From NCBI GenBank assembly GCA_002728755.1, contig PBVT01000085.1, positions 1 to 64,000 on the forward strand: a stretch of 64,000 nt of DNA. Reading direction: 5' to 3'. Shown in pieces: positions 15,333 through 25,956 of this stretch (its first letter is position 1; each line of letters opens with the position of its first letter). Source of the stretch: Myxococcales bacterium. GTDB lineage: Bacteria; Myxococcota_A; UBA9042; UBA3505. Below the pieces are notes generated by a model, which ran no database searches, was not told the origin of the DNA, and worked only from the letters and a program-made list of their open reading frames with translations. Position numbers and translations under genes: made by a program.

Positions 15333-17594
15333 ATGAAGGTTCAATCAAAGAAAAAACAGGCGTTAATTTATCACCGCGAACCGCGGCCCGGTAAGACAGA
15401 GATTCGGTCGACGAAGCCGTGTATCACCAGTCGCGATCTTTCACTCGCCTATACGCCTGGCGTGGCGCACCCCTGTCTAGAGATCCACGATGATCAGGAA
15501 TTGGCCTATGAGTACACCAATAAGGGAAACCTGGTCGCCGTGATCTCCAATGGGACGGCGGTGCTGGGACTCGGTGATATCGGTGCTCTGGCGGGAAAGC
15601 CCGTCATGGAAGGGAAGGCCGTTCTATTTAAACGCTTCGCTGATATCGATGTTTTTGATCTCGAAGTTGATATGGCGGACCCAGAACAATTTGTGGAGAT
15701 TGTGGCCGCTATCGCGCCAACCTTTGGCGGGATTAACCTCGAAGATATCAAGGCGCCGGAGTGTTTTGCGATCGAGCGCGCTCTACGTAAACGGCTTGAT
15801 ATCCCGGTTATGCATGATGATCAGCACGGTACGGCGATCATTGCGGGAGCTGGCTTCATAAACGCGCTTACTATTGCCAACAAGGCCGCTGATTCGGTGC
15901 AGATCGTTACCTGTGGGGCCGGTGCGGCCGGTATCGCTTGTCTCGATATGCTGATTGATCTGGGAGCGAAGGAAGAGAACATTATGCTCGTGGATAGCCG
16001 AGGAGTTGTTCATAGCGAGCGGACGGATCTAAACGCGGAGAAGCAACGATTTGCGAGAGAGACGAGTCGCCGAACGCTGGAAGACGCCTTGGAAGGGGCG
16101 GACATGTTTCTCGGTCTCAGTGTTGGCGGGTTAATGTCACCGAAGATGTTGAAGAGCATGGCGGACAATCCAATTGTATTCGCCTTGGCGAATCCGAACC
16201 CGGAGATCGATTATCCCACGGCGATTAAGACACGTGACGATGTGATTATGGCCACGGGTCGGAGTGACTATCCCAATCAGGTCAACAACGTACTTGGCTT
16301 TCCCTTCATTTTTCGGGGAGCTCTTGATGTTCGGGCCAAAACAATCAATGGGGAAATGAAGATAGCTGCGGCGCGCGCCCTGGCGGAATTGGCCCGGGAG
16401 GAGGTCACCGACCAGGTTCGGACGGCTTACGATGGGGCTGTAATCCAATTTGGTTCCGGTTACATCATTCCCAAACCGTTTGATAACCGTGTTCTCTATA
16501 CGGTCGCCCCCGCGGTGGCCAAGGCCGCCACGGATAGTGGTGTTGCCAGGCGCCCCATCACAGATGTTGAGAGCTATCGTGATGAGCTGAAGGCGCGATT
16601 CCACCCGTCGGTCACAGTGATGCGGAGCATCTTTGATAAAATGCGAAAGAGCCCCCCTCGGATCGTGTACCCAGAGGGGCTTGATCCTCGGATTCTTCGA
16701 GCCGCCGAGGTGGCCGCCGATGCTGGTATTGCGCGACCGGTTCTACTCGGACCACGTGAAGACATCCTTGCGGAAGCAGAGCGCAATGAGGTCGAGCTTG
16801 AACAGGCCGGGATCGAGATCATCGACCCAAGCGATATTCCGAACCTTGAGGCGATGGTCGACCAGTTTCATGCTCGCCGTAACCGTAAAGGGCTGACACG
16901 AGGTTCTGCTCGCCGCCAACTTTGTACCGAGATGCATTATCTCGGAGCGATGTTGGTGGAGTCTGGAGATTGTGATGGGATGGTCGGAGGATTAAACCGA
17001 TCGTACCCCAGAGCATTACGCCCTGTGGTTCAGACGATTGGAACGCAGGATTCTCCCTCGGTCTTATGTGCCGTGTATCTGGTGTTCAAGGGAGCTGATC
17101 TCTACTTCTTTGCAGATACGACGGTTAATGTAGACCCCGATGCTGCCACGTTGGCGAATATCGCGACAACAGTAGCGGGGTTTGTAGAACGACTCGAGCT
17201 GGTTCCGAACATCGCCATGCTTTCGTTTAGCAACTTCGGATCGGCACGGATGAAGCAGAGCCAGAAGGTTGCCGAGGCGGTACGGTTGGTAAAGGAGTCG
17301 GCCCCAGGTCTCAACATCGACGGGGAGATGCAGTTTAACGTGGCATTCAACAGCAGCTACCGAAAGAACCTCTATGACTTCTCCAGCCTTACTGGTAACG
17401 CCAACGTCTTCATCTTCCCCAATCTGGAATCAGGTAATATTGCCTACAAGATGATGCAGACGATTGGTGAGGCGGAAGTGATTGGGCCGGTCCTTCTGGG
17501 GCTCAACAAGCCGGTACATGTGTTGCAGCGAGAGAGTGACGTAAACGATATCGTGAATCTTACGGCGTTGACGGGGTTCCGTGTGGATGAGTAG
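15333..17594 (+). CDS. maeB: NADP-dependent malic enzyme fused to phosphotransacetylase-like domain
   Basis: ORF 15273..17594; malic enzyme motifs ([41 protein letters not shown]) and C-terminal PTA-like region. Confidence 0.9.
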
Positions 17595-19476
17595 AGGCTT
17601 GTACAAGGCATCGCTCCCTTGGTTGCTGGTTGTATGGATAGCCATGGTGTTCTGGGGCTGCCGGCATGAACGCCCCTGGCCTGGTTCTGCTTCCGACCGA
17701 GTGGTTATCGTCTTGTCCAAGAGTCTGGGTCAGCTGGATCAACGGACAGCACATGACGGTACGACCCGGAAGGTCTCACGGTTGGTCTATCGGGGTTTGT
17801 TTCGGGTTCGAGGATCCGATCTGGCCATTGTGCCCGATCTGGCCGAAGAGCTGGTTCCCGATGGGCCTTTACGTTATTGCGTGTCCCTTCGACGAGACGT
17901 GCAATTTCATAATGGTGCCGCTCTGGCGGCCCGCGATGTGTCGTATACCCTTCAGTGCGCCATGGATGAGGCCAATGGTTCCTCTGTCCGCGGTCTCTAT
18001 CTGGACCGATTCCGGGCAGATAGACCATTTGATATGCCCGATGGACCCAATGGACATCGGATCTGTTTTAATCTGCGACAAGAAGTTGCCACGCTGCGGA
18101 CCGATCTTGTTTTGGGAATTGTTCCAGAGCCCGTACCCGTCGCGACCCGAAAGGAATGCAAACCCGACACCGTCGTGACGGCGATCGATGAATGCAACCA
18201 ATGTACCTGTAATGCAGATGGGGATTGGTCCTGCACGACTCGTGTTTGCCCGGGCTACGAACCGCCGGGTACGGGAGATTTTCGACTCTATCGGCGAGAT
18301 GGGGATAGGGGACTTATTCTGGAGCGTGTGGGTTGGTCGGATAGCCATAAGGCGCAGGGTGTCCCCCGGTACCTGGTTTTTCGTAACCTTCCCGATGAAA
18401 ACGGGCGCTTGTTAGCTCTCGTATCTCGAGATGCCGACCTGGTGTTGAATGGCTTCTCTCCAGCGGTTTTGAAGGTACTACAAGACGTCGATCATCTGCA
18501 GACCCTCAGGCACCCGTCGATGGTCGTGACCTATCTAACAATGAACACAACATTACCAACCCTGTCGGACCGCCGTGTACGAACCGCGATTGGGTACGCT
18601 GTGGACCGAGAATGGATTACGAGGGAGCGGTTTCTAAAAGGGGCTGCACCTGCAAACGGTATGCTACCCATCGGTCATTGGGCGCGAAACGACGCCGTCG
18701 ATCCGTTTACGGATTGTGTGCATGATCCTCAGGCACCGAAATCGGAGCAGTGTCGGTATAAAGCAGAGGAACTTTTGGAGCAGGCGGGCTTTCCACGAGG
18801 GCCGGATGGTGTTCGACTTCGTCTTCAATTATTGACCACCAATGACAGAATTCGACGACTTGTCGCACGTGACCTATCTCGGCAGCTGGAATTGGTAGGT
18901 ATTCAGGTCCGTGTCCGATCGCTGGAATGGGGCACAATGTTTGATTCCATAAAGAAGGGGCAATATGCCTTGGCCATCCTACAGCTACCGGAGCCAATTG
19001 AGCCGGATATGATGCGATGGATGTTTTTCAGCTTGAGCACACCACTCCATCAGGTACCGGATGCGGCGACTGCACTCGGTCGTGCTCCCCGGAGCGATTT
19101 TGTTCCGGGACTGACGAGTTTGTTTTTTAGCCCGGATTCGGTTTGCAGGAAGTGGGCGGTAAAGCATTTGGCGGTATCTGTTGAGGAGGCTCTAGAACGC
19201 AAGAAAGCCGGAACTCCGCGACGTGGCGGTGGGAATCGTTCGTTTTTTGCCGACGAAGAAGTGGATTGTTGGTTGGATCTGGCCCGGCGCCCCCTCGACC
19301 CTGCCATACGCAAACCATTTTACGATCGTGTGCAGGCACGACTTGCACAAGAGGTGCCGGTCTTATTTCTCTGGCATGAAGACAATGTCGCGGTCGCTTC
19401 GGACTCCTTATCAGGCATCTCGATGACCCTCCGTCCCGATTTGGCGTTTCTACGAAATGTCAGGCGGAGTCGGTGA
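17581..19476 (+). CDS. ABC transporter oligopeptide-type solute-binding lipoprotein (SBP_bac_5) with Cys-rich pacifastin-like insertion
   Basis: YCVSLRRDVQFHNGAALAARDVSYTLQ, GTGDFRLYRRD, RRVRTAIGYAVDREWI; lipobox FWGC; insertion at 18157-18249. Confidence 0.85.
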   Translation: MWMSRGLYKASLPWLLVVWIAMVFWGCRHERPWPGSASDRVVIVLSKSLGQLDQRTAHDGTTRKVSRLVYRGLFRVRGSDLAIVPDLAEELVPDGPLRYCVSLRRDVQFHNGAALAARDVSYTLQCAMDEANGSSVRGLYLDRFRADRPFDMPDGPNGHRICFNLRQEVATLRTDLVLGIVPEPVPVATRKECKPDTVVTAIDECNQCTCNADGDWSCTTRVCPGYEPPGTGDFRLYRRDGDRGLILERVGWSDSHKAQGVPRYLVFRNLPDENGRLLALVSRDADLVLNGFSPAVLKVLQDVDHLQTLRHPSMVVTYLTMNTTLPTLSDRRVRTAIGYAVDREWITRERFLKGAAPANGMLPIGHWARNDAVDPFTDCVHDPQAPKSEQCRYKAEELLEQAGFPRGPDGVRLRLQLLTTNDRIRRLVARDLSRQLELVGIQVRVRSLEWGTMFDSIKKGQYALAILQLPEPIEPDMMRWMFFSLSTPLHQVPDAATALGRAPRSDFVPGLTSLFFSPDSVCRKWAVKHLAVSVEEALERKKAGTPRRGGGNRSFFADEEVDCWLDLARRPLDPAIRKPFYDRVQARLAQEVPVLFLWHEDNVAVASDSLSGISMTLRPDLAFLRNVRRSR

Positions 19477-22024: not shown

Positions 22025-23059
22025 ATGGTACGAACACAGCAACATATGACCATAAGGCTCCCTAATCTCCTTTGGGTGGTGGTCTTATATGCTGCGTGCA
22101 GCCTGGCGGCTTGCGCGGAGAGTAGGTCCACACCCGAATCGACAGCGATGCTGGCCCAGGCCGCTCCTGCAGGGGCGCAAGAGCCAGATCAGGGCATGGA
22201 TGATCCGGAAAGTGAGGACGGCGAAGAGGAGCCTCATACAGCCGAAGAAGAAGACGACGAAGGGTCTGACGCGGGTGCAGACGACGAGGTGGTTGCTAAA
22301 TTTTCTGACACCCAACGCCAGGTGATGGGGGCCACCTTAGCGGAGCTCAAATGTGCAGAACGTCGACGGTCGCCAGCCGAGTTGGAGGCCTTTCGTGCCC
22401 AGCTTCTAAACCAATACGGTTGGGATCCGGAGACCTTTGATACGACCGCACGTGCTCTTCTTGCTTCGGATACGACCACGAGAAAAGCCTATGATCGGCG
22501 ATTGGCAGCATGTGTAGATTCGGCGGCCGATCCCAAGCTCCAGGCGAAGGCCAATAAGGTGTATATCGACCAGATGTGTCTGGCTCGAAAGGGGTTGACC
22601 CGGACCCGATGGGCGAAGCGATCGGCGGCGATCTATGAACGACATCGGATTTCACCGAAAGAGTATACGCTGACCATGCGATCTTTAATTCGAGATGCGC
22701 AGTTGCAGGCGGAGCTTGTGGAGCGGCTGGCGCGCGTATGCCCGAAACGGAAAAACCCCCGGGCCCTTTCATCGGGGCGATATCGAGGTACCGCCGAAGG
22801 AATTGATGGCCTGAAGTTTGTTCTTAAATTCCAGATTGAGAGCAAGACCATGAAGGATTTGAGCTTACCGATTGGGGGGAACGACTGGGAGGCAGCGGGC
22901 ACCCTTATTGATGAAGCGGTGTTCTTGTCTGGCCGGCATGGTCACGGTCGACTGGTTTTTCATGGATACCGTGACGGGAAACAAGTCGGTGGAGTGTTCC
23001 ACGGAATGGTTGATGGGCGACTCCAGCGAGGGAACTGGACCGCGAAACGTGTACGGTGA
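22025..23059 (+). CDS. Hypothetical lipoprotein, overlapping the downstream SBP gene
   Basis: Hydrophobic N-terminus with LAACAES lipobox; acidic linker; 4-bp overlap with the next ORF. Confidence 0.5.
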   Translation: MVRTQQHMTIRLPNLLWVVVLYAACSLAACAESRSTPESTAMLAQAAPAGAQEPDQGMDDPESEDGEEEPHTAEEEDDEGSDAGADDEVVAKFSDTQRQVMGATLAELKCAERRRSPAELEAFRAQLLNQYGWDPETFDTTARALLASDTTTRKAYDRRLAACVDSAADPKLQAKANKVYIDQMCLARKGLTRTRWAKRSAAIYERHRISPKEYTLTMRSLIRDAQLQAELVERLARVCPKRKNPRALSSGRYRGTAEGIDGLKFVLKFQIESKTMKDLSLPIGGNDWEAAGTLIDEAVFLSGRHGHGRLVFHGYRDGKQVGGVFHGMVDGRLQRGNWTAKRVR

Positions 23060-23115
23060 GTCGGCCCGGTACCATCTGTGGTGCCGGCGGTCTTTCCATG
23101 GTATGTTCCGCCGCT

Positions 23116-25032
23116 ATGTGCCGGTGGTTCCATAGAACGATGTCTTGCAGTGTGGCTCTTATTGCCATGTTGTGGGGGCTGAGCTGCGGTGGTCAGAGCC
23201 CAGATCGCCCTCAAAATCTGTTGGAGGCTTCGGCAGCATTATCTACCCCAGTCCCGGAGGGGACGGTCTGTGCTGTTCAAGAGAAAAAAGAGCGGAAAGG
23301 CCCGAAAGCGAACCATGTCGTAATTACCGAGGGTTCTTTCGCGAGTATCGATCCTGCCCTGGTTCATGAAACGGCCGGTAATATGATTGCTTCGCAGATG
23401 TTTGAGGGGCTTTTGCTGGCGGGCCACGGGAGCCTTAAGACACGACCTGGCCATGCGGAATCCTATACCGTCTCGGACGATGGGAAGGTCTATACATTCC
23501 AGCTTCGAAAGGGTCTGCGTTGGTCGGATGGTACGCCCATAACGACGGACGACTTCGTCTGGTCCTGGCGCCGCGTTCTGGAGCCAACCACGGCGGCCCA
23601 GGCGGCGTTTCTATTTCAAGATATCAAGGGGGCAATGGCCTTTCATTCGGGCAAGGGTAGCTGGGAAGACGTGGGGATCCGATCGAATCGTGAAGCGGGC
23701 ACTCTAACGGTAGAGCTGGCCCACCCGGCACCGTATTTCTTGTCTCTGGTCTCCGAGGTCAACTTCGCGCTCGCGCCTCGCCATATCATCGAGGCCCGCG
23801 GAAACAAGTGGTTGAAGCCGAAATATATTGTTGTGAACGGTCCCTACATCATGGTGGAACATCGAAACCATGATCGGGTCGTGATGAAGCGAAACGAGGC
23901 CTATTGGGACCGAAAATCGGTTCGTATTGCGAAGCTGTCGTTTCTCGAGACGGAGAGCGAGACCACTGCCTACCAGTGGTATAAGACGGGCCTGGTTCAG
24001 GTCGCGTCGCCCATTCCGAATGAAACCGTAACGAAGCTTCGCTCCGAATGCAGGCAGGATCTTATCCTCGCTCCCAATCTGTGTACCTATTATCTGACAT
24101 TCAACACCGGAAATTATGGCGGCAAGGTCAACCTGAATACGGCGACCCGTCAAAAACTGTTGTCTAAGATCAAAGGATTAACCGACGATCAGGCGAGCGC
24201 CATAATCATCTATCGCGAACAGAATCCGTTTACCGGGCCGGAACAGCTCCAAAATGTACCGGGCATCGATGCAAAATTCGTTTCGAAAGTTCGCCATAAA
24301 CTTATGGTAAAAGATAGGCCGCAACCGTTTCAGAGCGCGAAAATTCGCAAGGCGATCGATCTCGCAATTGATAAGGAAGCCCTTATCGCGCAGGTAATGG
24401 GTGGGAACCGGATTCCAGCCACGCATCTGGTGCATGAGGGCTTTGCGAAAGAGGGGTTTTCCTATGCGGAGGGGTCTTCCTTTGATCCAGAAAAGGCTCG
24501 CGCGTTATTGGCGAGCGCTGGCTACCCAGGAGGGAAAGGCTTTCCAAATATTGAGCTGGTGTATAACACCTATGAGACCCATAAGGTGATCGCTGAATAT
24601 GTGCAGCGTCAACTAAAGGAGAACCTCGGAATTTCCATCAGCATCGGCAATATGGAGTGGAAGAGCCTGCTCAACAAGATGCATAGCCACGAGTTCTACA
24701 TCTCTCGGTCATCCTGGTGCGTGGATTATCCGGATCCCCTCTCCTTCCTGGAGGTGTTTACCAGTGGGCATGAAAACAATTATGGTAGTTATGAAAACCC
24801 AGTCTACGACCGGTTGATTAATGAGGCTCGTCAGGAAACCGACCAAGAGGTTCGAAACCGGCTGCTTGTGCAGGCAGAAGAAATATTCAACCGGGACCAA
24901 CCGGTGATACCCGTGTATTTCTATACGAATATCTATCTCAAACACCCGGCCCTGAAAGGGTACCTACCGCATGTAATGGACCGGCATCTTCTTCGCGATT
25001 CGTATTATGAGTCGTTTGCTCAGGAGCGGTGA
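23116..25032 (+). CDS. OppA/DppA-type peptide-binding lipoprotein with internal ComEA-like helix-hairpin-helix domain
   Basis: ORF 23056..25032, ATG at 23116; RPGHAESYTVSDDGKVYTFQLRKGLRWSDGTPITTDDFVWSWRRVLEP, SAKIRKAIDLAIDKEALI; HhH insertion at 24127-24309. Confidence 0.88.
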   Translation: MCRWFHRTMSCSVALIAMLWGLSCGGQSPDRPQNLLEASAALSTPVPEGTVCAVQEKKERKGPKANHVVITEGSFASIDPALVHETAGNMIASQMFEGLLLAGHGSLKTRPGHAESYTVSDDGKVYTFQLRKGLRWSDGTPITTDDFVWSWRRVLEPTTAAQAAFLFQDIKGAMAFHSGKGSWEDVGIRSNREAGTLTVELAHPAPYFLSLVSEVNFALAPRHIIEARGNKWLKPKYIVVNGPYIMVEHRNHDRVVMKRNEAYWDRKSVRIAKLSFLETESETTAYQWYKTGLVQVASPIPNETVTKLRSECRQDLILAPNLCTYYLTFNTGNYGGKVNLNTATRQKLLSKIKGLTDDQASAIIIYREQNPFTGPEQLQNVPGIDAKFVSKVRHKLMVKDRPQPFQSAKIRKAIDLAIDKEALIAQVMGGNRIPATHLVHEGFAKEGFSYAEGSSFDPEKARALLASAGYPGGKGFPNIELVYNTYETHKVIAEYVQRQLKENLGISISIGNMEWKSLLNKMHSHEFYISRSSWCVDYPDPLSFLEVFTSGHENNYGSYENPVYDRLINEARQETDQEVRNRLLVQAEEIFNRDQPVIPVYFYTNIYLKHPALKGYLPHVMDRHLLRDSYYESFAQER

Positions 25033-25038
25033 AACGTA

Positions 25039-25956
25039 GTGGGTGGTTACATCATAAAACGACTGATGGTCGGTGTTGTGGTCCTTTTCGCGATCATGTC
25101 GATATCGTTTTTCATCATGCGGTTAGCCCCAGGTGGTCCCTTTGATGAAGACAAGGCTCTGCCCGAAGAAGTGAAAGCTAATGTTGAGGCTAAATTTGGT
25201 CTCAACAAGCCTTTGTATATGCAATATCTCCTGGCGATGAAGGGTTATGCACAGCTCGATTTCGGGCGTAGCTTTAAAGAGCCGGACCGAACGGTCATGA
25301 CCAATCTTAAGGAGCATTTCCCCATCAGTCTTGAGTTGGGTCTCTATGCTTTTATGGTGGCCCTTCTGATCGGAATCGGAGCGGGGATGATCGCTGGCTC
25401 GAAGCCTGGAACCGCGCGGGACCATCTAACGATGTCGGGAGCGATGATTGGGATCAGTGTGCCCAATATTGTCCTGGGGCCGATTCTACTCTTGTTTTTC
25501 GCGACCTATCTCGGGTGGTTGCCCTACGGTAAGTGGGATAGTTGGCAACATAAGATCTTGCCGTCGGTCACCCTGGGTCTGGTCTATGCAGCATACTTCT
25601 CCCGTCTGATGCGTGGAGGAATGTTAGAAGTGATCCGGACCGATTATATGCGGACAGCAAGAGCAAAGGGACTCCCACCAGGCCTTGTAATGCGACGCCA
25701 TGCGATACGTGGAGCGATTCTACCCACCGTCACCTATATGGGACCAGCGTTCGCAAGCATCCTTACGGGCAGTGTCGTTGTAGAGCGGATCTTCAGTGTC
25801 CCCGGGGTAAGCGATTTCTTCGTTAAGGGGGCGTTGAACCGCGACTACCCGATGGTTATGGGCGTCGTTGTTCTATACTCCGGACTGTTGGTCTTCTTGA
25901 ATATCTGTGTAGACATTGCCTACACCTATCTCGACCCACGGGTTCGCCTACGGTGA
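25039..25956 (+). CDS. Peptide ABC transporter permease (OppB/DppB-like)
   Basis: RLAPGGPF..., ARAKGLPPGLVMRRHAIRGAILPTVTYMG, GSVVVERIFSVPGVSDF; GTG start. Confidence 0.9.
   Translation: MGGYIIKRLMVGVVVLFAIMSISFFIMRLAPGGPFDEDKALPEEVKANVEAKFGLNKPLYMQYLLAMKGYAQLDFGRSFKEPDRTVMTNLKEHFPISLELGLYAFMVALLIGIGAGMIAGSKPGTARDHLTMSGAMIGISVPNIVLGPILLLFFATYLGWLPYGKWDSWQHKILPSVTLGLVYAAYFSRLMRGGMLEVIRTDYMRTARAKGLPPGLVMRRHAIRGAILPTVTYMGPAFASILTGSVVVERIFSVPGVSDFFVKGALNRDYPMVMGVVVLYSGLLVFLNICVDIAYTYLDPRVRLR

Follow-up and report, generated by a model that had tools for sequence, protein, structure and literature searches.

The closest described relatives of the receptor considered here are OppA, DppE and MppA (SBP_bac_5, cluster C). 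Its core matches theirs throughout, and so do the Cys pair (in LCTYY and SSWC) and the peptide-binding motif Arg-x-x-Trp-Cys-x-Asp; unlike them, the receptor carries a 61-aa helix-hairpin-helix (HhH) domain early in the C-lobe. The importer to which it belongs resembles Escherichia coli DppABCDF, which comprises the same families of receptor, two permeases and two ATPases, and in which the scoop region, a loop of the B permease, enters the receptor cleft and contacts it (PMC12136057). The HhH domain itself is closest to ComEA (PF12836, TIGR00426), sharing its sequence family, predicted (HhH)2 fold and extracytoplasmic location, but it lacks the DNA-contact Gly and Lys, is internal to a receptor and has no competence context. 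In a predicted model it also resembles PsbU and ERCC1-XPF, at the level of fold only. Both of these use the HhH fold for protein contact, PsbU doing so in an extracytoplasmic compartment.

The receptor is encoded in a 64,000-nucleotide stretch of contig PBVT01000085.1 from a Myxococcales bacterium (the window), where the following features were assigned:

23056-25032, plus strand: OppA-type peptide-binding protein (SBP_bac_5, E 2.7e-83), probable lipoprotein
23116 or 23140, plus strand: likely ATG start of the receptor ORF
23185-23187, plus strand: candidate lipid-anchored Cys of the receptor
23443-24108, plus strand: first part of the SBP core, up to the interdomain strand LCTYYLTFNT (Pfam and PDB receptor alignments)
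24109-24126, plus strand: N-terminal linker of the insert, GNYGGK (SBP alignment)
24127-24309, plus strand: 61-aa ComEA-type (HhH)2 domain inside the SBP (HHH_3 E 1.2e-12, over cutoff; four-helix model; likeness to 2DUY)
24175-24192, plus strand: first hairpin, GLTDDQ, with T, D and Q at the positions of ComEA G60, K62 and K63 (column comparison)
24262-24276, plus strand: second hairpin, GIDAK, with the second Gly replaced by Asp and one Lys kept (column comparison)
24310-24777, plus strand: second part of the SBP core (KDRPQPF.SAKIRKAIDLAID onward), including RSSWCVD with the putative peptide-amine-binding Asp (alignments)
25039-25956, plus strand: OppB-type permease of the same importer, without the lipoyl-like insert (Pfam; class comparison)

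A Pfam scan of the ORF returned SBP_bac_5 as a single match (aa 130-574; 280.6 bits, over the curated cutoff; profile positions 3-366 of 368). When aligned with PDB sequences, ISRSSWCVD of the receptor falls on VARAGWCAD of OppA, in which we take the Asp to bind the peptide amine, beside Arg, Trp and Cys. With a full-length family match, a linked Opp-type permease and the Asp plus Arg/Trp/Cys motif all present, the protein is, by its sequence, an OppA-type receptor with its core intact around the insert. It most likely binds peptides as OppA does and would serve in their transport. The earlier note had called it a lipoprotein, which is likely, although its lipobox, MCRWFHRTMSCSVALIAMLWGLSC before GG, is imperfect when set against LTAC before GG or LALAC before G in relatives.

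That note had also placed a ComEA-like HhH module inside the OppA-type protein, at 24127-24309, between flanks that are normally nearly adjacent, and each part of this description held, the coordinates to the base. HHH_3 (aa 357-416; 48.2 bits, cutoff 27) interrupts the single SBP_bac_5 match, both being over cutoff, and OppA and DppE from the PDB align over query 77-351 and again over 420-646, the gap between them coinciding exactly with the HhH segment. An alignment of 33 SBPs (31 homologs, of which 29 belong to the same class, plus the window protein itself and the other SBP that the genome encodes) gave 68 extra residues (GNYGGK, the 61 aa and K) in the window protein alone. In the other aligned SBPs, the strand ending in FNT runs straight into the PF.D.RVR.A helix, and all 31 homologs are continuous there. 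Because the insert is missing from every aligned homolog, the module appears to have been added at a tolerant loop. On the OppA alignment, the insertion point lies about 9 residues past the start of domain III (a boundary that we take to be near residue 270), right after the interdomain strand. Scans of viral contigs to deepen the structure alignment contributed one useful OppA.

The insert is ComEA-type by ancestry, as judged from profiles and alignments. The best-scoring profile on it is that of the class's ComEA-like domains (55.2 bits), with the barrel-type profile reaching 33 bits; NCBIfam ComEA models match as well, though below their own cutoffs, and the three PDB sequence matches come from ComEA and the human nuclease EEPD1 only. 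A single-sequence model of the segment forms four helices (pLDDT 72), and its Foldseek match of highest probability (0.82) is the Thermus thermophilus ComEA-related structure 2DUY, a match that is supportive only, as its E is above 1. The Foldseek list also includes PsbU and ERCC1-XPF. The model of the full-length receptor (mean pLDDT 53.5, pTM 0.44) is too poor to place the HhH domain relative to the docking face; its best Foldseek matches are DppE and OppA, but with an rmsd of about 15 A.

As to the source of the module, a recent copy of the genome's own ComEA-like genes, which lie on contig C39, was considered and rejected, there being no long DNA match to that stretch and a protein identity of 31-37%. 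The nearest branch to the insert in a small tree, with weak support (0.51), is the third, degenerate HhH of a 230-aa protein encoded on C39.

In Vibrio cholerae ComEA, K62/63A abolishes DNA binding in vitro, the G60V and G60E variants are non-transformable, and R71 is probably structural (PMC3879209). This numbering, which we infer for the present domains from motif spacing (GIG-x-K-K-A...YR), fits the first HhH of the window genome exactly. The GhG hairpin with Lys at 62 and 63, which V. cholerae ComEA requires, is absent from the insert, where T, D and Q stand at the three positions and the second hairpin reads GID; the R71 equivalent is kept. As G60, K62, K63 and the second-hairpin Gly are replaced while the overall pattern and R71 are retained, the HhH fold appears to have survived without the canonical DNA grip. 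Among 91 HhH domains gathered from relatives (the Tex-like and barrel-like labels being our own, from length and sequence), Gly occupies position 60 in all 35 ComEA-like domains, all 6 MBL-fold fusions and all 30 Tex-like domains, against none of the 15 that are N-terminal in large exported barrel-like proteins, with which the insert groups on this feature. Lys/Arg at 62/63 is missing also in 9 of the 35 ComEA-like domains. DNA binding by the receptor is predicted to be unlikely, although the second-hairpin Lys and the net charge of +4 on the insert may leave a weak residual affinity. Exported proteins of about 540-910 aa, in which an N-terminal HhH without the DNA-hairpin Gly precedes a long putative beta-barrel region, recur in the class at several loci (L119-L138).

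The rest of the importer was compared across ten genomes of the class, that of the window included. In the window genome, oppB follows the receptor gene at a distance of 6 bases, and oppC, oppD and oppF lie together on contig C20, apart from oppAB, a split that sets the system off from E. coli DppABCDF; in one relative, all five importer genes form a single operon. Every one of the ten OppC proteins has a loop of 184-240 residues that separates the first helix from the permease core and in which EF-hand motifs can be seen. Pfam EF-hand matches exceed the cutoff in the window genome (EF-hand_6, 30.4 bits, cutoff 25) and in G004, and fall below it in G017. A lipoyl-like module of ~70 residues (Pfam Biotin_lipoyl below cutoff, E 0.001) occupies the first extracytoplasmic loop of OppB, after TM1, in 8/10 genomes, the window genome and one other lacking it; its site is the scoop region. 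The class's B and C permeases, as well as the window receptor, thus differ from their E. coli counterparts in having extra extracytoplasmic domains. Together, the OppC loops and OppB inserts suggest that such additions are a habit of the class's importer, of which the HhH would be the window lineage's own version, carried on the receptor. Loci with an EF-hand OppC include L162 5482-8048, L163 5094-7596 and L166 3379-4950, with seven more. The loop of the window genome's own OppC (L166 3379-4950, minus strand) holds an extra Cys-rich stretch, GGDCRADGGGCDDGLFCHEGLCLPP, which none of the other loops in the OppC comparison has.

The fusion was seen in one genome only. The earlier note had proposed a search for homologs with the same insertion; no match spanning receptor and HhH was found elsewhere among the 53 nearest relatives searched, and no such fusion among 377 genomes sampled from the phylum. 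The same insert was not found in plasmids, nor in genome contigs, where the scan is weak evidence because it relied on exact 8-residue patterns. Long frames bearing an HhH in genomes of the class were retrieved and inspected, and none of these frames is an SBP. A literature search found no description of SBP with HhH or of OppC with EF-hand, in agreement with the note's remark that it knew of no described example of the former; the parts are each known, and the combination of SBP and HhH is undescribed as far as the literature and genomes searched show.

We consider it about an even bet (roughly 0.5) that the HhH is a lineage-specific protein-contact domain on the receptor of an OppA-type peptide importer. 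An OppA-type receptor would have gained a ComEA-type HhH in a surface loop just past the strand leading over to the C-lobe, and would still bind peptides and pass them to OppBCDF. The HhH would act as an extracytoplasmic protein-contact module, docking or positioning the receptor in the manner of PsbU and ERCC1-XPF, and its likeliest partner would be another importer part (the OppC EF-hand loop or the OppB scoop region) or an envelope protein. Such an add-on is more likely than DNA binding because the residues with which the family holds DNA are lost. Counting against it are the lead of the ComEA-like over the barrel-type profile (55 vs 33 bits), the 9/35 ComEA-like domains that likewise lack Lys/Arg at 62/63, and the confinement of the fusion to a single genome. 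More tentatively, a second extracytoplasmic interface of the importer, made up of the OppC EF-hand modules and the lipoyl-like modules in the OppB scoop loop, might exist class-wide, an HhH without DNA grip on the receptor taking the place of the OppB module in this lineage, so that receptor docking would depend on a partner or on calcium.

The rival that survives best, although we hold it to be doubtful, is that the insert is a neutral passenger, carried in frame in a tolerant loop without a selected function. Its occurrence in one genome only would fit, as would the extra Cys-rich stretch of OppC, as if the lineage tolerates inserts, and the state of the genome's other SBP, which bears a lineage-specific insert of another kind, a pacifastin domain:

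17581-19476, plus strand: second SBP_bac_5 protein of the genome, with a Pacifastin_I insert at 18154-18264

Here, Pacifastin_I (E 8e-8, over cutoff) occupies a loop that differs from that of the HhH receptor; matches to relatives break off near query 148 and start again near 190, the relatives having a shorter stretch between. The genome encodes only these two SBP_bac_5 proteins, each with a different small-domain insert. Against a passenger, identity to the nearest relatives found for the HhH is only about one-third to two-fifths, yet the HhH core pattern is retained and HHH_3 still matches at 48 bits. This points to selection on the fold, barring a recent acquisition of the domain from an unsampled donor. 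Long arrays of pacifastin-like repeats also occur in the window genome (C50 685-2478, C132 26481-27095 and C25 16650-22057). The pacifastin domain is widely held to be restricted to arthropods (PMC13388995).

The earlier note had read the architecture as possibly that of a dual receptor scavenging peptides and DNA, with the HhH holding extracellular DNA or nucleopeptides. Its account of the architecture and of a ComEA-type ancestry (55.2 bits with the class profile) stands; nucleic-acid binding is improbable. Ancestry speaks for it, as do the charge of the insert (+4, against -2 for the SBP), the exported ComEA-like proteins that the genome encodes, and an exported MBL-fold protein that adjoins a triple-HhH protein on contig C39. 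However, T, D and Q have taken the places of G60, K62 and K63, the second-hairpin Gly is gone, and loss of the two lysines in K62/63A is what abolishes ComEA binding in vitro (PMC3879209). The importer genes moreover lie apart from competence genes: none was found beside the receptor gene, which is surrounded by genes for peptide import, radical SAM proteins and housekeeping functions. Exported MBL-fold proteins fused to, or beside, three HhH domains occur at L132 and L086 and, in the window genome, at L076 511-2346; the pair looks like an extracellular nuclease and DNA-binding protein related to the ComEC C-terminal domain.

Slimmer still is the chance that the HhH tethers the receptor to the envelope, through an outer-membrane or cell-wall protein, a role that the class's exported HhH/barrel-like proteins might share. 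The many exported HhH domains of the class without the DNA-hairpin Gly are consistent with it, but no direct link leads from the barrel-like proteins to the receptor.

An assembly chimera is unlikely because the insert is in frame at both junctions, with clean domain borders, inside a 235,487-bp contig, with no direct repeat found spanning the junctions and no long DNA copy in the other own-genome stretches compared. Its GC3 (0.54) falls within the range of same-length stretches of the receptor gene (0.475-0.738). Although the draft genome lies in 133 contigs with a contamination estimate of 4.69%, and no second genome backs the junctions, the in-frame ends, the glycine-rich linker and the 235-kb contig make an assembly or binning artefact very unlikely.

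The usual view of SBPs is that of closed two-lobe units. If the protein-contact reading is true, a domain inserted next to the hinge, in a class where the importer's permeases have likewise gained domains, would show how such insertions provide ABC importers with contacts for docking or regulation. The family name "DNA-binding HhH" would also mislead functional annotation, as the contact residues are gone. Because the genome's only two SBP_bac_5 proteins carry two different small-domain inserts, the tolerance of SBP loops becomes testable. The decorated Opp importer found class-wide may prove more interesting than the HhH insert itself.
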